Shown: piece after piece, positions 902 to 59,185 of the stretch
Position numbering within the stretch: position 1 is the first letter of the stretch
How the letters are laid out: the number at the start of each line of letters is the position of its first letter
Source: Anadara kagoshimensis
Lineage: Eukaryota; Mollusca; Bivalvia; Arcoida; Arcidae
Length of the DNA stretch: 64,000 nt
Reading direction: 5' to 3'
NCBI GenBank assembly: GCA_021292105.1
Contig: CM037869.1
Span: forward strand, 50,709,851-50,773,850
Notes under the pieces: generated by a model
Told to the model about the DNA's origin: nothing
Seen by the model: the letters and a program-made list of their open reading frames with translations, nothing else
Database searches by the model: none
Made by a program: the position numbers and the translations under genes

Positions 902-1235
902 ATTAATATATTTGTACATGTAAGATCATCTCTGCTCTAATTAAAAGTCTTCCTTCACAGAGAACTCTTGCATGTCTTGGTTATGATATTAATTTTCGTA
1001 TAACACTTGATACAAAATAAGATGAAATGATTCACCTGATTTTTATCATTTATCGTTATAATTCTTTAAAGATTCCAATCGACCATTTTCAAGTTTTGGT
1101 ATGTGTTGTGTGTAACTTATTAGTACTTAACTTCTTAATTTTATAGAAGAACTGAGTAATGATGATATGACTAAAGAGGAAATGGGAAATAGGACAAAAT
1201 TCCAACAATTGTGTCAAACCAGCTGTACTGAAAAA
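902..1235. other. AT-rich DNA, nothing recognised
   Basis: No gene or repeat was recognised here. Confidence 0.5.
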
Positions 1236-1441
1236 AATTACATATTATACCAGTTTTATATTTACAGCACTAGACGGCCGTTTCGGAATACAATTCCTCA
1301 TCAGTAGCGTTTGGACCAAAATTATTTTGAAGATGTTGAAAAGCTACCCAAAGGACGAAAATATATTTTACAAAATTAAGCTTAGGAAATACTTTGGATG
1401 AGGGAGTATACCTTAGTGTTTGAGAAATTTCAAATTTTAAC
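1236..1441 (-). repeat. Retrozyme-like repeat copy (minus strand)
   Basis: This is a minus-strand copy of the ribozyme repeat family also seen near 18.0, 55.1 and 59.0 kb. Read on the minus strand it runs from 'aaggtatactccctcat', through the block ending in 'ttttggtccaa', into the hammerhead core, and ends in 'aaaactggtataatatgt'. It has no protein-coding capacity. As in the other copies, the ribozyme lies near the 3' end of the unit. Confidence 0.75.
1266..1311 (-). ncRNA. Hammerhead ribozyme, type I, canonical core
   Basis: On the minus strand the core is CUGAUGA, then stem II (GGAAU/AUUCC, loop UGU), then GAAA, a tiny stem III (AC/GU, loop GGCC), then the cleavage-site C. The predicted cut is between 1273 and 1272. 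Stem I pairs 6 of 7 positions, including one G-U wobble. All invariant core bases are present. The segment ACGGCCGU is self-complementary, so stem III could also form between two molecules. Self-cleavage is an inference from the fold. Confidence 0.75.
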
Positions 1442-16275: not shown

Positions 16276-16910
16276 ATAATAAACAAACCATAACAAATAA
16301 ATAGAACTCAACCCGTCAAAGACGGGGGTGTGACCAAAAAACAATCTCTTCGAAGCGGCGGCTAATAAATGTACTGGGGACGTGAAATTCATCTCGGGAC
16401 GTCCTTGTAGTAGCCTTGTCAGAGCTGATTATGACTGTTAACATGAACATGAACCGTGACATTCCACATCGATCGTTATGAATAGCTTAGAACTGAAAAA
16501 TCTACTTGCATTTGACTCTGGCTAAACATGGTTGAAACCGAGGCATAATATGGCTTTGGGGTTTCATTCCTTAAGTTACCCGACAGATATACCTTAAATT
16601 ACCTGGCAGAGAAACCACAGTGCTTGTCATTAATTAACACTGGCCTAGATATTACCCATTTTGAAAAAAAATATATTTTATCATTTTTTTAAATTTTACT
16701 ACATTTGTGGTAAAATTAATTTGTTACATTTGTGGTAAAATTTTGTTGCTACATTTGTGGTAAAATTTTGCTACATTTGTGACCAACTTTTACTACATAT
16801 GTGACAAACCTTACTACATTTGTAGTTCGTTACTACATATGTGACGCAATTTTATTACATTTGTGACCGTTACTACATTTGTGGTAGTTACTACATATAG
16901 GGGTCCCACA

Positions 16911-17740
16911 GGTCTGTAATGTACATTTTTGTCAATTTTATCGTAGTGGAGTGCTCAATTTTCGACAGGTCGGTACTGTATTTTTTTTTATCTGTATCGT
17001 AGCAGAGTGCTTAACTTTCGACAAGTCGGTACTGTTAGTGTTTTGTCAATTGTATCGTAGTGGAGTGCTTAATTTTTCGACAGGTCGGTACTGTATTTTT
17101 TTCATTTGTATCGTAGCGGAGTGCTTAACTTTCGACAGGTCGGTACTGTTAGTGTTTTGTCAATTGTACCGTAGTGGAGTGCTTAATTTTTCGACAGGTC
17201 GGTACTGTATTTTTTTCAATTGTATCGTAGCGGAGTGCTTAACTTTCGACAGGTCTGTACTGTACATTTTTGTCAATTGTATCGTAGCAGAGTGCTTAAT
17301 TTTCGACATATTTGTACTTTAATTTTTGCCAATTGTATCGTAGCAGAGTGCTTAATTTTCGACATATCTGTACTTTAATTTTTGCCAATTGTATCGTAGA
17401 GGAGTGCTTAACTTTTGACATGTCTGTACTGTAAAAAATTGTCAATTGTATCGTAGAGGAGTGCTTAACTTTTGACATGTCTGTACTGTAAAAAATTGTC
17501 AATTGTATCGTAGAGGAGTGCTTAACTTTCGACAGGTCTGTACTGTAAATGTTTGTCATTGTATCGTAGCGGAGTGCTTAACTTTCGACAGGTCGGTACT
17601 GTCATTTATTGTCAATTTTATCGTAGCGGAGTGCTAACTGTACTGACATTTTTTGTCAATTGTATTGTAGCTGAGTGCTTAACTTTTGACAGGTCGGTAC
17701 TGTATTTTTTTGTCAATTGTATCGTATATTTTATCTCATT
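16911..17740 (+). repeat. Minisatellite M57, right block
   Basis: About 14 tandem units of 56-58 bp: 'tgtatcgtagcggagtgctt', 'aactttcgacaggtcggtac', 'tgtaatttttgtcaat'. Neighbouring units form subfamilies ('gacatatctgtacttt', 'gacatgtctgtactgt'), indicating local duplications. Short frames on both strands simply read through the repeat and are not genes. Confidence 0.9.
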
Positions 17741-17991
17741 TGATATCCACACATGTGACAGATCAACCAGGAGTGGTTTGTTTTGTAATTTATGTCAGTT
17801 AAATATTGATTTTATACAGCTATAAGAGCCAATACATTGTTATTTCATTCAATTTTCTAAACGTGACACAAATGGATAGAATGAATGGTGTTGTATTATG
17901 AATTTACTATGATTTACTATACATAACAGTACGGGGTAAGTATAGCTTTTCAACAACTTCAAAATAATTTTGGTTTCATAATTTTGGTCAA

Positions 17992-18037
17992 AGCACTACT
18001 GATGAGGAATTGTATTCCGAAACGGCCGTCTAGTGCT
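17992..18037 (+). ncRNA. Hammerhead ribozyme, type I, intact
   Basis: Stem I pairs AGCACUA (17992-17998) with UAGUGCU (18031-18037), 7 of 7. The core is CUGAUGA (17999-18005), stem II GGAAU/AUUCC with loop UGU, and GAAA (18019-18022). Stem III is two base pairs with loop GGCC, followed by the cleavage-site C at 18030. Every invariant position is present. The very short, palindromic stem III (ACGGCCGU) suggests activity as a dimer, as known for other short-stem-III hammerheads. Confidence 0.9.
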
Positions 18038-18316
18038 GTAAAATTAAAACTGGTATAATATGTAATTTAAACCCCTGAGCCGATATCTCTGCTGGTGGCT
18101 GGTGCCCCGAGGATATCACAAACTCAGTAGGCAATAATTCGTATTATTGTCAGAAATATACTATAATTGTCTAAATTTCCTGCAAGTTAAAAATTGAAAA
18201 TTATCAAAAACTAAGGTATACTCCCTCATGCAAAATATTTCCTTAGCTTAATTTGGTAAAATATATTTTGGACCTTTTGGGTAGCTTTTCAACATCTTCA
18301 AAATAATTTTGGTCAA

Positions 18317-18362
18317 AGCAATACTGATGAGGAATTGTATTCCGAAACGGCTGTCTAGTGAT
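18317..18362 (+). ncRNA. Hammerhead ribozyme, canonical core, weakened stem I
   Basis: CUGAUGA (18324-18330), stem II and GAAA are intact. The stem III segment is ACGGCUGU. Stem I pairs only 5 of 7 positions. The predicted cleavage is after 18355. Confidence 0.75.
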
Positions 18363-18400
18363 GTAAATTTAAAACTGGTATAATATGTAATTACATGTTT

Positions 18401-18595
18401 TACCAGTTTTAATTTTACAGCACTAGACGGCCGTTTCAGAACACAATTCCTCAACAGTTGCGCTTGGGTCAAAATTATGAAATGAAAAAATACCAAAAAG
18501 GACGAAACATATTTGGCCATAGTTAGCTAAGAAAATACTTTCATGAGAGAGTATACCTTAGTTTTTGAGGAATTTGAAATTTTAAAATGTTTCTG
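18401..18595 (-). repeat. Inverted retrozyme-like copy with decayed ribozyme
   Basis: A minus-strand copy abuts the tail of the plus-strand pair, tail to tail. Its core reads CUGUUGA instead of CUGAUGA, and stem II ends UUCU, so it should be inactive. The 'gagtataccttag' block marks the family's other end. Confidence 0.75.
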
Positions 18596-24625: not shown

Positions 24626-25048
24626 GTTGAGGTTGTCGATTTGTCGATTTTTTTAAGAAAAAAACCACGTATTTCTTTAACAAACTCTGGCCCGTTTGAA
24701 CTGCTCTATTGCGTTGACTATGTTAATATCTTTTCTTTTTTTTAAAGTAATTTGTTATACAAGGTCAAAACTGTTTTTCCCTCACACGTGTATTTTTGCA
24801 ATTTCTATAAAGAAATGCATTTAATATTTTAAAAATTCTCGTCCTGCTTTATTTTCATTTATAAATTTTCACACTTGTGTAGGTAATTTCATAATTGTAC
24901 CTCTCTTTCGCGTTTTTCAACCAAATGGTTTTCACTTGAATTTTCATACTTAAATGACCCTTAAGTAAGATATATATCTAAGTTTGAATCATACCACCCA
25001 TTCAAAACATGCTTTATGTGATCGGACTACATCATATTGTAGCGGTCT

Positions 25049-25118
25049 GGGTAGCTCAGTGGTAGAGCACTCGCCTATAGTGCTGGAGGTCCCAGGTTCT
25101 ATCCCCGGTCCGACCCTT
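25049..25118 (+). other. tRNA-like domain of left terminal repeat
   Basis: A box 'tagctcagtgg', anticodon loop 'ctatagt' (AUA at the anticodon position, unusual for a working tRNA), and T arm 'ccaggttctatcccc'. The acceptor stem has one or two mismatches. It is more likely a Pol III promoter-bearing element part than a functional tRNA gene. Confidence 0.6.
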
Positions 25119-25263
25119 CATTTTGTCTCTTTCCTGTTACATTTGGGGGCTCGTCCGACCCTGGGAAGTGGCCGACCAACAGGTTGGCCCAAGGGTGGAA
25201 CCTGTTGATTTCGATTTAAGGGAGTTGAAATGAAAAAAAGGAAGGAAGGAATATAGCGGTCTG

Positions 25264-25331
25264 GGTAGCTCAATTGTAGAGCACTCGCCTATAGTGCGGG
25301 AGGTCCCGGGTTCGATCCCCGGCCCGACCCT
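25264..25331 (+). other. tRNA-like domain of right terminal repeat
   Basis: The same fold, with a perfect T arm ('ccgggttcgatccccgg') and the same AUA loop. The D arm reads 'agctcaattgtagagc', one base changed from the A-box consensus. Confidence 0.6.
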
Positions 25332-31055: not shown

Positions 31056-32693
31056 CTATACACATCCACTTTCATCTTGCTGTTCTAAAGTCTGACCACT
31101 TTCATCTTGCTGGTCTATAGCGTGAACATTACCATCTTGCTGTTCTGTTGACTGATAACAACATTTTTGTTGTTCTAAAGTCCGTCCACTATCACCTTGC
31201 TGTTCTATAGTGTGAACATTACCATCTTGCTGTTCTATAGTGTGAACAATACCATCTTGCTGTTCTATAGTGTGAACAATACCATCTTGCTGTTCTATAG
31301 TGTGAACAATACCATCTTGCTGTTCTATAGTGTGAACAATACCATCTTGCTGTTCTATAGTGTGATTATTATCATTTTGTTGTTCTGTATTCTGAATACT
31401 ATCACCTCTCTGTTCTAAAGTCTGGCCATGACCATCTTGCTGTTCTATAGCGTGACCATGATCATTTTGCTGTTCTATATTCTGAATACTATCACCTGTC
31501 TGTTTTAAAGTCTGGTCATTACCGTCTTGCTGTTCTATAGCGTGACCATGATCATTTTGCTGTTCTGTATTCTGAATACTATCACCTGTCTGTTCTATAG
31601 TCTGGTCATTACCATCTTGCTGTTCTATAGTGTGACCATGATCATTTTGTTGTTCTGTATTCTGAATACTATCACCTGTCTGTTCTAAAGTCTGGCCACT
31701 ACCATCTTGCTGTTCTATAGCGTGACCATGATCATTTTGTTGTTCTGTATTCTGAATACTATCACTTCTCTGTTCTAAAGTCTGGCCACTACCATCTTGC
31801 TGTTCTATAGTGTGACCATGATCATTTTCTTCTTCTGTATTCTGAATACTATCACCTGTCTGTTCTAAAGTCTGGTCACTACCATCTTGCTGTTCTATGG
31901 TGTGACCATGATCATTTTGCTGTTCTGTATTCTGAATACTATCACCTGTCTGTTCTAAAGTTTGGCCACTACCATCTTGCTGTTCTATAGCGTAACCATG
32001 ATCATTTTGTTGTTCTGTATTCTGAATACTTTCACCTGTCTGTTCTAAAGTCTGGCCACTACCATCTTGCTGTTCTATAGTGTGACCATGATCATTTTGT
32101 TGTTCTGTATTCTGAACACTATCACTTCTCTGTTCTAAAGTCTGGCCACTACCATCTTGCTGTTCTATAGCGTGATCATGATAATTTTGCTGTTCTATAT
32201 TCTGAATACTATTACCTGTCTGTTTTAAAGTCTGATCATTACCGTCTTGCTGTTCTAAAGCGTGACCATGATCATTTTGCTGTTCTGTATTCTGAATACT
32301 ATCACCTGTCTGTTCTATAGTCTGGTCATTACCATCTTGCTGTTCTATAGTGTGACCATGATCATTTTGTTTTTCTGTATTCTGAATACTATCACCTGTC
32401 TGTTTTAAAGTCTGGCCACTACCATCTTGCTGTTCTATAGCGTGATCATGATCATTTTGCTGTTCTATATTCTGAATACTATCACATGTCTGTTTTAAAG
32501 TCTGGTCATTACCGTCTTGCTGTTCTATAGCGTGACCATGATCATTTTGCTGTTCTGTATTCTGAATACTATCACCTGTCTGTTCTATAGTCTGGTCATT
32601 ACCATCTTGCTGTTCTATAGTGTGACCATGATCATTTTGTTGTTCTGTATTCTGAATACTTTCACCTGTCTGTTCTAAAGTCTGGACTACCAT
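31056..32693 (-). CDS. Decapeptide-repeat protein, C-terminal 545 codons open
   Basis: The minus-strand frame ends at a TAG (31056-31058) and stays open for 545 codons. It is composed of 10-residue units: EQQNDHGHTI, EQQDGNDQTI and EQTGDSIQNT type, repeated as a 30-residue block. The C-terminal end departs from the pattern (QQKCCYQS, DESGQTL, ESGCV) with five consecutive EQQDGIVHTI units before it. The composition is extremely rich in Q, D, N, E, H and poor in aromatics, with one I/L per unit. No signal peptide, membrane segment or known domain is seen. The ATG at 32693 appears only because of a 2-base deletion, so the true start lies upstream. Family not recognised. It could be a real extracellular or structural repeat protein, or a satellite that happens to be open. 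Confidence 0.45.
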   Translation of the reverse strand: MVVQTLEQTGESIQNTEQQNDHGHTIEQQDGNDQTIEQTGDSIQNTEQQNDHGHAIEQQDGNDQTLKQTCDSIQNIEQQNDHDHAIEQQDGSGQTLKQTGDSIQNTEKQNDHGHTIEQQDGNDQTIEQTGDSIQNTEQQNDHGHALEQQDGNDQTLKQTGNSIQNIEQQNYHDHAIEQQDGSGQTLEQRSDSVQNTEQQNDHGHTIEQQDGSGQTLEQTGESIQNTEQQNDHGYAIEQQDGSGQTLEQTGDSIQNTEQQNDHGHTIEQQDGSDQTLEQTGDSIQNTEEENDHGHTIEQQDGSGQTLEQRSDSIQNTEQQNDHGHAIEQQDGSGQTLEQTGDSIQNTEQQNDHGHTIEQQDGNDQTIEQTGDSIQNTEQQNDHGHAIEQQDGNDQTLKQTGDSIQNIEQQNDHGHAIEQQDGHGQTLEQRGDSIQNTEQQNDNNHTIEQQDGIVHTIEQQDGIVHTIEQQDGIVHTIEQQDGIVHTIEQQDGNVHTIEQQGDSGRTLEQQKCCYQSTEQQDGNVHAIDQQDESGQTLEQQDESGCV

Positions 32694-35600
32694 CTTGCTG
32701 TTCTATAGTGTGACCATGATCATTTTGTTGTTCTGTATTCTGAATACTATCACTTCTCTGTTCTAAAGTCTGGCCACTACCATCTTGCTGTTCTATAGCG
32801 TGATCATGATCATTTTGCTGTTCTATATTCTGAATACTATCATCTGTCTGTTCTAAAGTCTTATCATTACCATCTTGCTGTTCTATAGTGTGACCATGAT
32901 CATTTTGCTGTTCTGTATTCATCTTCTATCACCTGTCTGTTCTATAGTCTGGTTACTACCATCTTGCTGTTCTATAATGTGACCATGATCATTTTGCTGT
33001 TCTATATTCTGAATACTATCATCTGTCTGTTCTAAAGTCTTGTCATTACCATCTTGCTGTTCTATAGTGTGACCATGATCATTTTGTTGTTCTGTATTCT
33101 GAATACTATCACCTGTCTGTTCTATAGTCTGGTTACTACCATCTTGCTGTTCTATAGTGTGACCATGATCATGTTGCTGTTCTGTATTTTGAATACTATC
33201 ACCTGTCTGTTCTATAGTCTGGTCATTACCATCTTGCTGTTCTATAGTGTGACCATGATCATGTTGCTGTTCTGTATTCTGAATACTATCACCTGTCTGT
33301 TCTATAGTCTGGTTACTACCATCTTGCTGTTCTATAGTGTGACCATGATCATGTTGCTGTTCTGTATTCTGAAAACTATCACCTGTCTGTTCTATAGTCT
33401 GGTTACTACCATCTTGCTGTTCTATAGTGTGACGACCATGATCATGTTGCTGTTCTGTATTCTGAATACTATCACCTGTCTGTTCTATAGTCTGGTCATT
33501 ACCATCTTGCTGTTCTATAGTGTGACCATGATCATTTTGCTGTTCTGTATTCTGAATACTATCACCTGTCTGTTCTAAAGTCTGGCCACTACCATCTTGC
33601 TGTTCTATAGTGTGACAATGATAATATTGCTGTTCTGTATTCTGAATACTATCACTTGGCTGTTCTAAAGTCTGGTCATTACCATCTTGCTGTTCTATAG
33701 TGTGACCATGATCATTTTGTTGTTCTGTATTCTGAATACTATCACTTGGCTTTCCAAAGTCTGGTCATTACCATCTTGCTGTTCTATAGTGTGACCATGA
33801 TCATTTTGTTGTTCTGTATTCTGAATACTATCACTTGGCTGTTCTAAAGTCTGGTCATTACCCTCATGCTGTTCTATAGTGTGACCATGATCATTTTGCT
33901 GTTCTGTATTCTGAATACTATCACTTGGCTGTTCTAAAGTCTGGTCATTACCATCTTGCTGTTCTATAGCGTGAACATTATCATTTTGCTGTTCTGTATT
34001 CTGAATACTATCACTTGGCTGTTCTAAAGTCTGGTCATTACCATCTTGCTGTTCTATAGCGTGACCATTATCATTTTGCTGTTCTATATTCTGAATACTA
34101 TTACCTGTCTGTTCTAAAGTCTGGCCACTACCATCTTGCTATTCTATAGTGTGACCATGATCATTTTGCTGTTCTATTTTCTGAATACTATCATCTGTCT
34201 GTTCTAAAGTCTTGTCATTACCGTCTTGCTGTTCTATAGTGTGACCATGATCATTTTGCTGTTCTACATTCTGAAAAACTATCACCTGTCTGTTCTAAAG
34301 TCTTGTCATTACCATCTTGCTGTTCTATAGTGTGACCATGATCATTTTGCTGTTCTATATTCTGAATACTATCATCTGTCTGTTCTAAAGTCTTGTCATT
34401 ACCATCTTGCTATTCTATAGTGTGACCATGATCATTTTGCTGTTCTGTATTTTGAATACTATCATCTGTCTGTTCTAAAGTCTTGTCATTACCATCTTGC
34501 TGTTCTATAGTGTGACCATGATCATTTTGTTGTTCTGTATTCTGAATACTATCACCTGTCTGTTCTATAGTCTGGTTACTACCATCTTGCTGTTCTATAG
34601 TGTGACCATGATCATGTTGCTGTTCTGTATTTTGAATACTATCACCTGTCTGTTCTATAGTCTGGTCATTACCATCTTGCTGTTCTATAGTGTGACCATG
34701 ATCATGTTGCTGTTATGTATTTTGAATACTATCACCTGTCTGTTCTATAGTCTGGTCATTACCATCTTGCTGTTCTATAGTGTGACCATGATCATGTTGC
34801 TGTTCTGTATTCTGAATACTATCACCTGTCTGTTCTATAGTCTGGTCATTACCATCTTGCTGTTCTATAGTGTGACCGTGATCATTTTGTTAATCTGTAT
34901 TCTGAATACTATCACCTGTCTGTTCTATAGTCTGGTTACTACCATCTTGCTGTTCTATAGTGTGACCATGATCATGTTGCTGTTCTGTATTCTGAAACTA
35001 TCACCTGTCTGTTCTATAGTCTGGTTACTACCATCTTGCTGTTCTATAGTGTGACGACCATGATCATGTTGCTGTTCTGTATTCTGAATACTATCACCTG
35101 TCTGTTCTATAGTCTGGTCATTACCATCTTGCTGTTCTATAGTGTGACCATGATCATTTGCTGTTCTGTATTCTGAATACTATCACCTGTCTGTTCTAAA
35201 GTCTGGCCACTACCATCTTGCTGTTCTATAGTGTGACAATGATAATTTTGCTGTTCTGTATTCTGAATACTATCACTTGGCTGTTCTAAAGTCTGGTCAT
35301 TACCATCTTGCTGTTCTATAGTGTGACCATGATCATTTTGTTGTTCTGTATTCTGAATACTATCACTTGGCTGTTCCAAAGTCTGGTCATTACCATCTTG
35401 CTGTTCTATAGTGTGACCATGATCATTTTGTTGTTCTGTATTCTGAATACTATCACTTGGCTGTTCTAAAGTCTGGTCATTACCATCATGCTGTTCTATA
35501 GTGTGACCATGATCATTTTGCTGTTCTGTATTCTGAATACTATCACCTGTCTGTTCTAAAGTCTGGCCACTACCATCTTGCTGTTCTATAGCGTGATCAT

Positions 35601-38600
35601 GATCATTTTGCTGTTCTATATTCTGAATACTATTACCTGTCTGTTCTAAAGTCTGGCCACTACCATCTTGCTATTCTATAGTGTGACCATGATCATGTTG
35701 CTGTTCTGTATTCTGAATACTATCACCTGTCTGTTCTATAGACTGGTCATTACCATCTTGCTGTTCTATAGTGTGACCATGATCATTTTGTTAATCTGTA
35801 TTCTGAATACTATCACCTGTCTGTTCTATAGTCTGGTTACTACCATCTTGCTGTTCTATAGTGTGACCATGATCATGTTGCTGTTCTGTATTCTGAATAC
35901 TATCACCTGACTGTTCTATAGTCTGGTTACTACCATCTTGCTGTTCTATAGTGTGACCATTATCATTTTGTTCTTCTGTATTCTGAAAACTATCACATGT
36001 CTGTTCTATAGTCTGGCCATTACCATCTTGCTGTTCTATAGTGTGACCATGATCATTTTGCTGTTCTGTATTCTGAATACTATCACTTGGCTGTTCTAAA
36101 GTCTGGTCATTACCATCTTGCTGTTCTAAAGTCTGACCATGATCATTTTGCTGTTCTGTATTCTGAATACTATCACTTGGCTGTTCTATAGTCTGGCCAT
36201 TACCATCTTGCTGTTCTAAAGTGTGACCATGATCATTTTGCTGTTCTGTATTCTGAATACTATCACATGTCTGTTCTATAGTCTGGCCATTACCATCTTG
36301 CTGTTCTAAAGTGTGACCATGATCATTTTGCTGTTCTGTATTCTGAATACTATCACATGTCTGTTCTATAGTCTGGCCATTACCATCTTGCTGTTCTAAA
36401 GTGTGACCATGATCATTTTGCTGTTCTGTATTCTGAATACTATCACTTGGCTGTTCTATAGTCTGGCCATTACCATCTTGCTGTTCTAAAGTGTGACCAT
36501 GATCATTTTGCTGTTCTGTATTCTGAATACTATCACATGTCTGTTCTATAGTCTGGCCATTACCATCTTGCTGTTCTAAAGTGTGACCATGATCATTTTG
36601 CTGTTCTGTATTCTGAATACTATCACTTGGCTGTTCTAAAGTCTGGTCATTACCATCTTGCTGTTCTATAGTGTGACCATTATCATTTTGCTGTTCTGTA
36701 TTCTGAATACTATCACCTGTCTGTTCTATAGTCTGTCCACCATCATCTTGCTGTTCTATAGTGTGACCATTATCATTTTGCTGTTCTGTATTCTGAATAC
36801 TATCACCTGTCTGTTCTTTAGTTTGGTCATTACCGTCTTGGTGTTCTATAGCGTGACCATGATCATTTTGTTCTTCTGTATTCTGAATACTATCACCTGT
36901 CTGTTCTATAGTCTGTCCACCACCATCTTGCTGTTGTATAGTGTGACCATTATCATTTTGCTGTTCTGTATTCTGAATACTATCACCTGTCTGTTCTATA
37001 GTCTGGTCACTACCGTCTTGCTGTTCTATAGCGTGACCATGATCATTTTGCTGTTCTGTATTCTGAATACTATCACCTGTCTGTTCTATAGTCTGGTCAT
37101 TACCGTCTTGCTGTTCTATAGTGTGACCATGATCATGTTACTGTTCTGTATTCTGAATACTATTACCTGTCTGTTCTAAAGTCTGGTCATTACCGTCTTG
37201 CTGTTCTAAAGCGTGACCATGATCATTTTGCTGTTCTGTATTCTGAATACTATCACCTGTCTGTTCTTTAGTCTGGTCACTACCATCTTGCTGTTCTATA
37301 GTGTGACCATTATCATTTTGCTGTTCTGTATTCTGAATACTATCACCTGTCTGTTCTATAGTCTGGTCACTACCATCTTGCTGTTCTATAGCGTGACCAT
37401 GATCATTTTGCTGTTCTGTATTCTGAATACTATCACCTGTCTGTTCTATAGTCTGGTCATTACCGTCTTGGTGTTCTATAGCGTGACCATGATCATTTTG
37501 CTGTTCTGTATTCTGAATACTATCACCTGTCTGTTCTATAGTCTGGTCACTACCATCTTGCTGTTCTATGGTGTGACCATGATCGTTTTGCTGTTCTGTA
37601 TTCTGAATGCTATCACCTGTCTGTTCTATAATCTGGTCACTACCATCTTGCTGTTCTATGGTGTGACCATGATCGTTTTGCTGTTCTGTATTCTGAATGC
37701 TATCACCTGTCTGTTCTATAATCTGGTCACTACCATCTTGCTGTTCTATGGTGTGACCATGATCGTTTTGCTGTTCTGTATTCTGAATGCTATTACCTGT
37801 CTGTTCTAAAGTCTGGTCATTACCGTCTTGCTGTTCTATAGCGTGACCATGATCATTTTGCTGTTCTGTATTCTGAATACTATCACCTGTCTGTTCTATA
37901 GTCTGGTCACTACCATCTTGCTGTTCTATAGTGTGACCATTATCATTTTGCTGTTCTGTATTCTGAATACTATCACCTGTCTGTTCTATAGTCTGGTCAC
38001 TACCATCTTGCTGTTCTATAGCGTGACCATGATCATTTTGCTGTTCTGTATTCTGAATACTATCACCTGTCTGTTCTAAAGTCTGGTCATTACCGTCTTG
38101 CTGTTCTATAGCGTGACCATGATCATTTTGCTGTTCTGTATTCTGAATGCTATCACCTGTCTGTTCTATAGTCTGGTCACTACCATCTTGCTGTTCTTCA
38201 GCGTGACCATGATCATTTTGTTCTTCTGTATTCTGAATACTATCACCTGTCTGTTCTATAGTCTGGTCATTACCGTCTTGGTGTTCTATAGCGTGGCCAT
38301 GATCATTTTGCTGTTCTGTATTCTGAATACTATCACCTGTCTGTTCTATAGTCTGGTCACTACCATCTTGCTGTTCTATGGTGTGACCATGATCGTTTTG
38401 CTGTTCTGTATTCTGAATGCTATCACCTGTCTGTTCTATAATCTGGTCACTACCATCTTGCTGTTCTATGGTGTGACCATGATCGTTTTGCTGTTCTGTA
38501 TTCTGAATGCTATCACCTGTCTGTTCTATAATCTGGTCACTACCATCTTGCTGTTCTATGGTGTGACCATGATCGTTTTGCTGTTCTGTATTCTGAATGC

Positions 38601-38830
38601 TATCACCTGTCTGTTCTATAATCTGGTCATTACCATCTTGCTGTTCTATGGTGTGACCATTATCATTTTGCTGTTCTGTATTCTGAATACTATCACTTGT
38701 CTGTTCTAAAGTCTGGTCACTAGCATCTTGCTATTCTATGGTGTGACCATTATCATTATGATGTTCTATAGCCTGAATACTATCACCTCTCGGTTCTAAA
38801 GTCCCCCCACTATCATTTTGCTGTTATAGA
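31056..38830 (-). repeat. 7.7-kb satellite: 30-bp units in 90-bp higher-order repeat
   Basis: About 255 units of 30 bp, arranged as three distinguishable types in a ~90-bp block repeated about 85 times. On the plus strand each starts 'tgttct' and the types end in 'atcattttgc', 'atcacctgtc' and 'accatcttgc'. The minus-strand frame is kept for long stretches (for example about 35790-37138 and 37140-38730). It is broken by indels near 32690, 32920, 33752, 34273, 34995 and 35157 and by stops near 34140, 34410, 34714, 34891, 35671, 35791, 37139 and 38731. Two 3-base insertions (33433, 35055) keep frame. The common a/t variant in 'ttctatag'/'ttctaaag' is I-to-L on the minus strand but makes a stop in the plus-strand frame, so minus is the better coding strand. 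Confidence 0.9.
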
Positions 38831-54623: not shown

Positions 54624-55020
54624 ACTAGACCGTAGTGAGAGAATGTTTAAAAAATTTTGTTCTTCGTGTCAAGTATGTTATGCAAAGTGCAAAGCATTTT
54701 TTTCAAAATGTGAGAAACCTGTTAAAAAGTTATCTCTTAATAAAACTATGTTTTTTTTTCCTTTGGAAGTACCGGTATTGGAGATTTTTCACAATAGTTT
54801 TGCCGTATGCAAACTTTTATACACTTACATGACAAAAAAAAAAATCATAAAATTTGATAAAATAAAGTAATGAAGTTATTTTAAATCCATTTATATTCAA
54901 TCGACAAATAAATGACAAAGCAAATATCAATAAAATTATAGTGACAATTGCATTTTCTTTCCAGAACACCGGACTTGCTTCCATGGTTAAAATTATCAGT
55001 CTTATCTTAATCTCTTTTAA
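54624..55020. other. AT-rich DNA, nothing recognised
   Basis: Short overlapping frames occur on both strands in low-complexity sequence. None has recognisable features. Confidence 0.45.
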
Positions 55021-55230
55021 AACTAAAACTGGTATAATATGTGATTTACTGCTAGATAAAATCTTAAAATTCCTCAAAAACTAAGGTATACTCCCTCTTG
55101 CAAAATATTTTCTACGCTACATTTGGTTAATTAATTTTGGTCCTTTTAGGCATCTTTTCAACATCTTGATCCAAGCACTACTGATGAGGAATTGTATTCC
55201 GAATAGGGCGTCTAGTAATGTAAAATTAAC
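55021..55230 (+). repeat. Retrozyme-like repeat, partial dimer
   Basis: It starts with the tail of one unit ('aaaactggtataatatgtga') and continues directly into the next ('attcctcaaaaactaaggta' …), so it preserves a head-to-tail junction. It ends with 'gtaaaattaacactgtttaa'. Confidence 0.7.
55174..55219 (+). ncRNA. Hammerhead ribozyme, inactivated
   Basis: CUGAUGA and stem II are perfect, but GAAAC reads GAAUA and stem III is altered (AGGGCGU). Stem I is partly paired (AGCACUA with UAGUAAU). Loss of the invariant GAAA should abolish cleavage. Confidence 0.7.
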
Positions 55231-55970
55231 ACTGTTTAATCCCATTTGCCAGTTTTCTAAGTTTTGAAGTGGTTGGAGCGAACTCTAGCTGATGGATATG
55301 TTTGTGTTTTATCGATATAGCAAATACAATTTTAATTGTTATTCTTTTGCACAGGATACTACTGCATTCATTTTTTTATTTTGACGACGACTTTTAATAA
55401 TAAATCGAATTATATAATTAATTACGACGGTGTTCAATATGTACTCAAAACAAAATGAATTAGATGAGGCAACCTAAGGTCATATAAACAAGTTTAAGTT
55501 GGAAAAATAGCTATTTTTGCTATATGAGGGGCAAATATAAAACCCCTGAACTGTAAAACAAAAGGTCAAAATTCCTGTTGGATACAGAAATTTCAAATAC
55601 TATTTCCATAATTTGAAAGAAAAACTTATGTTTTAATTAGGTAAAAAATAAAATATCGACTATATAGTATTCCTGGAAGTACAGTGGTTTTAAATTTCAA
55701 ATCTACATAAATCAGTCTGCAGCGTTACGGGATAAATACTTTCATTTCCTATACATGTCTTATTTTGTAGGTTTAGAAAAAGTGAATGTAGTAATTCAGT
55801 ATGATAAATAATTAAATATCCGGACTCTTTCAATAAATCAGCAAGTCAAAACCGGTGCATTTCATTTTGAATAGGTTTGTCGCTTTACTATACGACTAGT
55901 CTTTTGAGAAATTGAAGTCAAATGTTTTATCTCACTTTACGTTTGACATTCCGTGTTCCTTTCTTTCTCA
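55231..55970. other. AT-rich DNA, nothing recognised
   Basis: No gene or repeat family was recognised. Confidence 0.5.
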
Positions 55971-58332: not shown

Positions 58333-58590
58333 TTTGATGACAATTGCATTAAACATTTGCCTAATGTCATCAACATCTTTATCGACATTAAGTTTTAAAT
58401 GAATCCGATTTAACATATGCTGTGTATATAGTTCGACTGTCAGATCAAACTAATAAGATTATGCATACTATTCCCTAAATTTGCTGCTTGTTAAAAATTC
58501 CTCAAAAATTAAAGTATACTCCATCATGCAATGCATGTTCTTTGCTCCTTTGCTGATTTTGGTGCAATTACATATTATACCAGATCTTTA

Positions 58591-58628
58591 TTTTTACAGC
58601 ACTAGACGGCCGTCTAGTGCTGTAAAAA
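58591..58628. repeat. Perfect 38-bp palindrome from two ribozyme halves
   Basis: The two 19-base arms are exact reverse complements centred between 58609 and 58610. Each arm is the cleavage-site side of the hammerhead (stem III GUC, then UAGUGCUGUAAAAA), one per strand. Confidence 0.9.
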
Positions 58629-58709
58629 TATATTAAAACTATATTTTATTACTTTGGGTTTCTTTTCAACATCTTTCATAATTTTGGTCCAACAACTACT
58701 AATGAGGAA

Positions 58710-58866
58710 TTGACGGATCGCCGGCCACGCACACTATGTTCCGAGAAAGGGGCGACGTGCTTGAATGACACGCAAAAAGAATGAAAACTCGGCCTGAATT
58801 GTGCGGATTAATGGCATCACTGACACTAGAAAGTCATTAGTTGCCGTGATGCTGTTTTGGTATCGA
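58710..58866 (+). mobile_element. MITE-2, right end missing
   Basis: Left end TTGACGGATCGCCGGCCACG and internal 'gtgatgctgttttggta' match the copies at 48282 and 61567. The right inverted end is absent, and the sequence passes straight back into the ribozyme repeat. Confidence 0.7.
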
Positions 58867-58899: not shown

Positions 58900-58975
58900 G
58901 TGTATCCTTCCGGAGCACCTGATATCACTTCCCAAGTGAAAGTTCATGATTTTATTGGAATTTGTCAGTTCCTAA
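58900..58975 (+). mobile_element. Family R 3' UTR scrap
   Basis: 'gtatccttccggagcacctg', 'gtgaaagttcatgatttta' and 'tttgtcagttccta' lie in UTR order. Confidence 0.5.
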
Positions 58976-59185
58976 TTTAACATTTCTCAAAAACTGAGGT
59001 ATACTCCCTCATGCAGGGTATTTCCTTAGCTTAATTTGGTAAAATATATTTGGTCCTTTCGGTAGCTTCTCAACACATTCAAAATAATTTTAGTTTCAAA
59101 TTTTGGTCCAAGCACTACTGATGAGGAATTGTATTCCGAAACGGCCGTCTAGTGCTGTAAAATTAAAACTGGTTTAATATGCAAT
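58976..59185 (+). repeat. Retrozyme-like repeat copy, well preserved
   Basis: Runs from 'tctcaaaaactgaggtatac' through 'tttcggtagcttctcaacac' to the ribozyme and the tail 'aaaactggtttaatatgcaa'. Confidence 0.75.
59111..59156 (+). ncRNA. Hammerhead ribozyme, type I, intact
   Basis: Identical to the copy at 17992-18037: AGCACUA/UAGUGCU stem I (7 of 7), CUGAUGA (59118-59124), stem II GGAAU/AUUCC, GAAA (59138-59141), ACGGCCGU, cleavage expected between 59149 and 59150. Two copies 41 kb apart with the same 46 bases argue for recent spread or for selection on the fold. Confidence 0.9.

Follow-up and report, generated by a model that had tools for sequence, protein, structure and literature searches.

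A segment of 46 nucleotides at positions 17992-18037 of the stretch of Anadara kagoshimensis contig CM037869.1 analysed here (64,000 nt in full length, referred to as the window) has the appearance of a hammerhead ribozyme and recurs within the same stretch, which raises the question of what kind of element carries it and how copies of such an element come to be inserted in the genome. The initial annotation had proposed, from the letters of the DNA, intact hammerheads in a dispersed, retrozyme-like family whose RNA cleaves itself.

The hammerhead and its family

The order of CTGATGA, stem II and GAAA, together with a stem I that pairs at 7 of 7 positions, was verified in the letters at 17992-18037 as that of a type I hammerhead (Table 1), and so were the second, identical 46-base ribozyme at 59111-59156 and the near-perfect minus-strand copy at 1266-1311, which has 2 differences in 46 and pairs at 5 of 7 positions in stem I. 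The description as intact hammerheads held for two of the six window copies compared, whereas the other four are damaged, with stem I pairing at 5 of 7 positions in each; besides the minus-strand copy just mentioned, the changes per 46 letters are 3 at 18317-18362 (+), 5 at 55174-55219 (+) and 5 at the inverted 18419-18464 (-). The 23-nt stem-II core, with up to three mismatches allowed, was found six times in the window, compared with a mean of 0.00 in 100 shuffles. The suggested comparison with the Rfam type I models counts against the hammerhead, in that the score of Hammerhead_1, 28.1 bits with E 1.7e-4 when 1.1 kb was searched, does not reach the cut-off of 34, and a scan of the window at the gathering threshold did not report the hammerhead at 17992-18037. 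Rfam microRNA matches near the hammerhead were below their cut-offs, sitting on a tail-to-tail palindrome, and were set aside. The RNA of the family, as of its class, is expected to cut itself.

Table 1. Positions of the hammerhead elements and retrozyme copies in the window
Feature	Positions	Strand	Description
Stem I, 5' half	17992-17998	+	AGCACTA; intact hammerhead
Core	17999-18005	+	CTGATGA; intact hammerhead
Stem II	18006-18018	+	GGAAT/ATTCC, loop TGT; intact hammerhead
GAAA	18019-18022	+	Intact hammerhead
Stem III	18023-18028	+	Short, loop GGCC; intact hammerhead
TC	18029-18030	+	Predicted cut 18030/18031; intact hammerhead
Stem I, 3' half	18031-18037	+	TAGTGCT, pairs 7/7 with AGCACTA
Retrozyme insertion	17943..18392	+	1.37 units, unit positions 284 to 69; reference-unit alignment
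Older inverted copy	18389..18585	-	78% identity, positions 190-69; reference-unit alignment
Retrozyme copy	1235..1441	-	0.65 unit, positions 189-70; hammerhead 1266-1311 with 2 stem I changes
Tail-only retrozyme copy	55018..55048	+	Positions 41-71
Old retrozyme copy	55044..55234	+	76% identity, positions 178-54; damaged hammerhead
Four old or partial retrozyme pieces	58475..58712		Both strands
Retrozyme copy	58974..59185	+	0.63 unit, positions 194-68; intact hammerhead 59111-59156

The second unit of the 17943..18392 insertion has a damaged hammerhead (18317-18362) and a 14-nt deletion, and this insertion adjoins the older inverted copy tail to tail, with AATT common to both. Six of the ten aligned retrozyme pieces in the window end at unit positions 68-71, and at 58606-58613 two pieces overlap head to head at the palindromic loop of stem III. 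The GC content around the window copies is approximately 0.32-0.36, and no frame of at least 120 aa overlaps any of them, indicating a non-coding unit. A GC-rich stretch of 155 nt (58712-58866) inside a retrozyme remnant is a separate dispersed repeat, the family of which has 2408 first-look candidates in the genome, 40 of them scored, and a tandem array with a 56-nt unit lies at 16908-17726, directly upstream of the 17943..18392 copy. A second palindrome that carries the variants of the window palindrome (18374-18407), but in the opposite orientation, lies about 358 kb away (G000:C13:50370239-50370272) and is perhaps a segmental duplication or an assembly duplicate.

The genome (1.115 Gb in 36 contigs) was searched with a pattern of 40 bases that comprises the core together with the 3' strand of stem I, allowing up to two mismatches. 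As a result, 8302 places matched (4182 forward and 4120 reverse), compared with 0 for the reversed pattern as a control. An alternative stem II pattern matched at 25 places, apparently decayed copies, so that a single ribozyme family dominates within that pattern, and three pattern scans of viral contigs for the retrozyme gave 0 matches. As to the host, an exon of 59 aa from a muscle-type myosin had its highest scores with the scallop chains 2ec6 and 2os8, by a margin of only 0.4 bit over the next chains, a slight hint of a bivalve. The copies range from fragments to tandem arrays, the longest of about 11 units. The unit had been put at about 325 nt, which has to be corrected to 339 nt as the usual spacing in arrays, the occasional spacing of 325 nt being that of the form with the 14-nt deletion. 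The non-coding units, about 339 nt long and bearing a type I hammerhead, occur as fragments and tandem arrays, which supports the dispersed retrozyme-like family and agrees with what has been published on animal non-LTR retrozymes (PMC7229834).

The family is an animal non-LTR retrozyme, that is, a new family of a known class: it has a complete type I hammerhead core, a non-coding unit of 339 nt (150-450 bp in the class) with GC below 50%, and tandem copies from dimers to multimers. Its closest described counterpart is the retrozyme of the mussel Mytilus galloprovincialis, which it resembles in the type I hammerhead, the short AT-rich non-coding unit, the occurrence as fragments and tandems, and the presence of thousands of copies, with about 5000 hammerheads in the mussel; the unit is 339 nt here and 350-390 nt in the mussel, and the Anadara family, for which a fixed 3' end is described here, is known from genomic copies alone, whereas that of the mussel is known from RNA too (PMC7229834). 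Plant LTR retrozymes share with it a hammerhead and a life cycle with circular RNA (PMC4918200, as described in PMC7229834), but differ in having type III hammerheads, LTRs, a primer-binding site and a proposed Gypsy partner (PMC7229834).

Ends of the insertions and the RNA template

To locate the ends of copies, we used the repeated 339-nt unit as the reference, numbered from CTGATGA, with the cut at 32/33. Of 78 loci fetched, 70 were aligned (8 overlapping ones were skipped), giving 93 alignments, 77 of them at 88% identity or higher. The sample was non-random, consisting of 8 loci from the genome search, 30 + 20 core-pattern loci, which comprise the exact matches listed for the first 24.06 Mb of contig 1, and a further 20 chosen by hand from both, including arrays; the 16 of 93 alignments below 88% identity were excluded, as were those no more than 40 nt from the edge of a locus. 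In this sample, 71 of the 77 alignments ended at positions 66-73, which is 34-41 bases past the predicted cut, most commonly at position 69 (32 of 71), 37 nt past it, and none of the 77 ended at 30-35, so that the DNA copies end approximately 37 nt beyond the cleavage site. The six remaining 3' ends were at 18, 38, 80, 199, 254 and 339, and nine of the 16 excluded alignments of lower identity also ended at 66-73. Since four of the 71 are repeats of one insertion, 67 distinct insertions were obtained. This insertion signature of retrozyme copies, a fixed 3' end past the ribozyme, is the new element here.

The 5' ends of the sampled copies were scattered round the whole 339-base unit and were somewhat more frequent at 178-216 (16 of 67 distinct insertions; p = 0.003 against a uniform distribution, for an interval picked post hoc). 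The predicted fold of the unit has a stem-loop domain at about 77-155 (to about 173 in the circular fold), and our guess is that it might slow an enzyme arriving from the 3' side. Copy lengths were 0.10-11.2 units; 22 of the 67 distinct insertions exceeded one unit and 45 were of 1.02 units or less, many sampled copies being shorter than one unit. In a length series of 45 copies, from the loci that contain the exact matches listed for the first 24.06 Mb of contig 1, the numbers longer than 0.6, 0.8, 1.0, 1.2 and 1.5 units were 32, 20, 12, 8 and 3, respectively, with no visible step at the length of one unit.

The flanks of the 67 distinct insertions are AT-rich, and no general target-site duplication was found among them. 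Exact flank matches of at least 7 nt were present in 8 of the 67, compared with 0-5 in 20 shuffles, a number that is partly due to likeness to the element's own ends; a wider search for duplications gave 4 of 67, compared with 1-6 in shuffles, with those of at least 14 nt in 2, compared with 0-1. One insertion (L015) is flanked by a 32-nt repeat. Where a copy is joined tail to tail with an older copy, up to four letters, AATT, are common to both. A satellite or an inverted-repeat DNA transposon that spreads as DNA, with the hammerhead as a relic, would be in line with the existence of tandem arrays and inverted pairs, but is very improbable in that the 3' end is fixed while the 5' ends are scattered, the whole genome has tail-to-tail palindromes at only 8 places, which include duplicates of one another, and the younger copy adjoins the older one in the three sampled inverted pairs (L004, L072 and L075/L076). 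These palindromes were also considered as a special product, which was rejected on a rough estimate that chance insertions at AATT sites would be of an order similar to the 8 places.

With a fixed 3' end, scattered 5' ends and neither a step at one unit nor an excess at the cut, reverse transcription would have started at a fixed internal site, on RNA in which the cleavage junction was intact. Regarding the cut, 5' ends were found at 22 places, compared with 18 at a comparison site, without indicating an excess in this rough comparison of unequally strict filters (3 foreign letters before position 33 at the cut and 5 before position 41 at the comparison site), and at least 4 of the 18 resemble point variants of longer copies. 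Only one of the 67 distinct insertions has its 5' end at 28-38, in a sample biased against such ends because the insertions were found via their hammerhead. A linear monomer produced by self-cleavage begins right after the cut, and an enzyme that started on it at position 69 would reach its end after 37 nt. Since no excess of copies stopping at that point was seen, the RNA that was copied seems to have had an intact cleavage junction, as would a circle or a multimer left uncleaved.

Rare variants were common to adjacent units within an insertion in 114 of 312, compared with 157 of 31,494 between different copies, and this sharing in adjacent units dropped to 16 of 117 when arrays of at least four units were left out. 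The two units of the window insertion 17943..18392 share only one variant across their overlap. The sharing of variants would fit one circle copied repeatedly and, equally, a homogeneous multimer; because of the many unshared variants and the unlike window units, the circle remains a candidate template and one circle per insertion a proposal. Taken together, the copies, as read in the genome, show 3' ends at a fixed place, 5' ends that are scattered without any sign of a block at the unit length or at the cut, and units that are more alike within an insertion than between insertions.

As the template, a linear multimer that is transcribed from tandem arrays and stays uncleaved, with a hammerhead that is unnecessary for insertion, appears quite unlikely. 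Tandem arrays are present in the genome, the units within one insertion are often unlike, and the enzyme of a Penelope-like element (PLE) of a lizard is reported to use unprocessed RNA and to insert hammerhead mutants as well in vitro (PMC11167929); however, 45 of the 67 insertions are of 1.02 units or less, so that the sources would be a minority of loci, and circular RNA is described as the abundant form in the mussel (PMC7229834). The circle is the template that we prefer.

A candidate source of the reverse transcriptase

The retrozyme copies in the window encode neither a reverse transcriptase nor a GIY-YIG endonuclease, whereas PLEs elsewhere in the genome have both. Our survey of partners covered PLEs, by a genome search for GIY-YIG (at least 50 matches, best candidates only). 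The proteins of two loci (L079 and L080) have above-cut-off matches to Pfam RVT_1 and GIY-YIG, which identifies them as PLEs. The 3' UTRs of these elements contain a motif with, in order, ATTCAC and CTGAAGA, a stem II of four pairs that has a T-T mismatch at the base, GAAA, a tetraloop that is palindromic (GTAC in two and GCGC in one), TA and GTGAAT. The motif is hammerhead-like and may be read as a putative minimal hammerhead; in neither PLE locus does Rfam report one. The L079 locus has two copies, inverted to each other, that agree in every letter until 37 nt past the predicted cut and then both become T-rich, beyond which one continues into a TA repeat and the other into a stretch of about 37 nt common with L080. 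In the three tails read, PLE tails change form 37 bases past the predicted cut. A search with the L079 end gave 44 longer matches including the query, ending at query positions 241 (2), 201-203 (15), 188-194 (18) and 169-184 (9), and 12 of 14 neighbouring opposite-strand pairs join an end at 201 or beyond with one at 188-194, these end classes, in T/TA-rich sequence, being only indicative. The PLEs of L079 and of the matched pairs are inverted head to head and have two tail forms, one per side.

Internal initiation has been described as a feature of PLEs (PMC11167929). According to that report, the enzyme of the Anolis element Poseidon initiates internally in vitro, with two adjacent starts that define an optional tail of 30-40 bp, favours AT-rich targets that contain ATT, and cuts both DNA strands and extends them. 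The principal start of this enzyme lies 111-118 bp inside the ORF; with the hammerhead cut at 26, subtraction places the start 85-92 nt past the cut, compared with 37 nt in the retrozyme. The apparent fixed internal start past the hammerhead, reflected in the ends at 66-73, is a PLE-like trait of the retrozyme, and the hammerhead PLEs, both Poseidon and the local ones, resemble the retrozyme in a hammerhead followed by an internal start of reverse transcription, in AT-rich targets, and in inverted and tandem copies (PMC11167929). They differ from it in encoding a reverse transcriptase and a GIY-YIG endonuclease and in their tail sequences, which show no likeness to that of the retrozyme (13 of 37 positions identical, a value equalled by 27% of shuffles). 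On this geometrical and mechanistic link between the two, for which three PLE tails were read, we infer that a PLE-type enzyme is the best candidate partner.

A partner sharing the exact retrozyme tail was also sought and rejected: the 8 places with this tail after five foreign upstream letters have no common upstream sequence, so that no such partner appeared, and three of them (L081, L083 and L088) share the tail only, the rest being mutated or composite retrozyme copies. A LINE-type reverse transcriptase, with the agreement at 37 nt being coincidental, is rather doubtful, although the retrozyme tail is unlike the three PLE tails in a survey confined to PLEs and scattered 5' truncation is equally compatible with LINEs; the exact-tail places revealed no same-tail partner, and internal initiation is reported for PLEs (PMC11167929).

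We favor, with a probability of roughly 0.7, a non-LTR retrozyme whose cut and circularised RNA is copied from a fixed internal site by the enzyme of another element, for which a PLE is proposed. Retrozyme copies would be transcribed, their hammerheads would cut multimers to units, and a host ligase would close the units to circles; self-cleavage and circular RNA of retrozymes have been demonstrated in mussel, coral and axolotl (PMC7229834). With the end left by cutting AT-rich DNA as its primer, the reverse transcriptase of another element would start at one fixed position inside the RNA, about 37 nt past the hammerhead cut, would pass through the intact junction of the cleavage site, and may circle more than once before falling off. 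The circle, rather than an uncleaved multimer, would be the template, and the enzyme would be supplied by PLEs, some of which here have the hammerhead-like motif and a tail boundary at 37 nt. A more tentative idea, which we hold at somewhat less than even odds, is that animal retrozymes are parasites of PLEs, with the module of hammerhead and tail as a docking and start signal, at which the PLE reverse transcriptase would begin about 37 nt past the hammerhead, and the ribozyme-made circles as an endless template.

PLEs have earlier been proposed as retrozyme partners from co-occurrence (PMC7229834), and a 2020 review describes the repeats as having no conserved motif that points to an autonomous partner (PMC7761336). 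A description of a fixed start of reverse transcription in retrozymes was not found in titles and the openings of abstracts, mostly outside subscription journals, and PMC11167929 was not among the literature since 2020 that combines retrozyme, Penelope and reverse transcriptase. The signature described here narrows the template and points to a candidate enzyme for animal retrozymes, and the fixed site of entry, at about 37 nt beyond the ribozyme, together with the equal boundary in three PLE tails, provides a precise prediction on the mobilising enzyme.

Other features of the window

The window also contains a 7.6-kb array (31197-38803) of about 84 copies of a 90-nt unit, with long minus-strand frames in which 30 residues of the type EQTGDSIQNTEQQNDHGHTIEQQDGNDQ are repeated; two frames of the array were without a Pfam match. 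Two tRNA matches, at 25045-25115 and 25259-25329, are 0.2 kb apart, one of them barely above the Rfam cut-off, and a frame of 411 aa at 19934-21169 matches the rhodopsin-type 7TM receptor family in Pfam.
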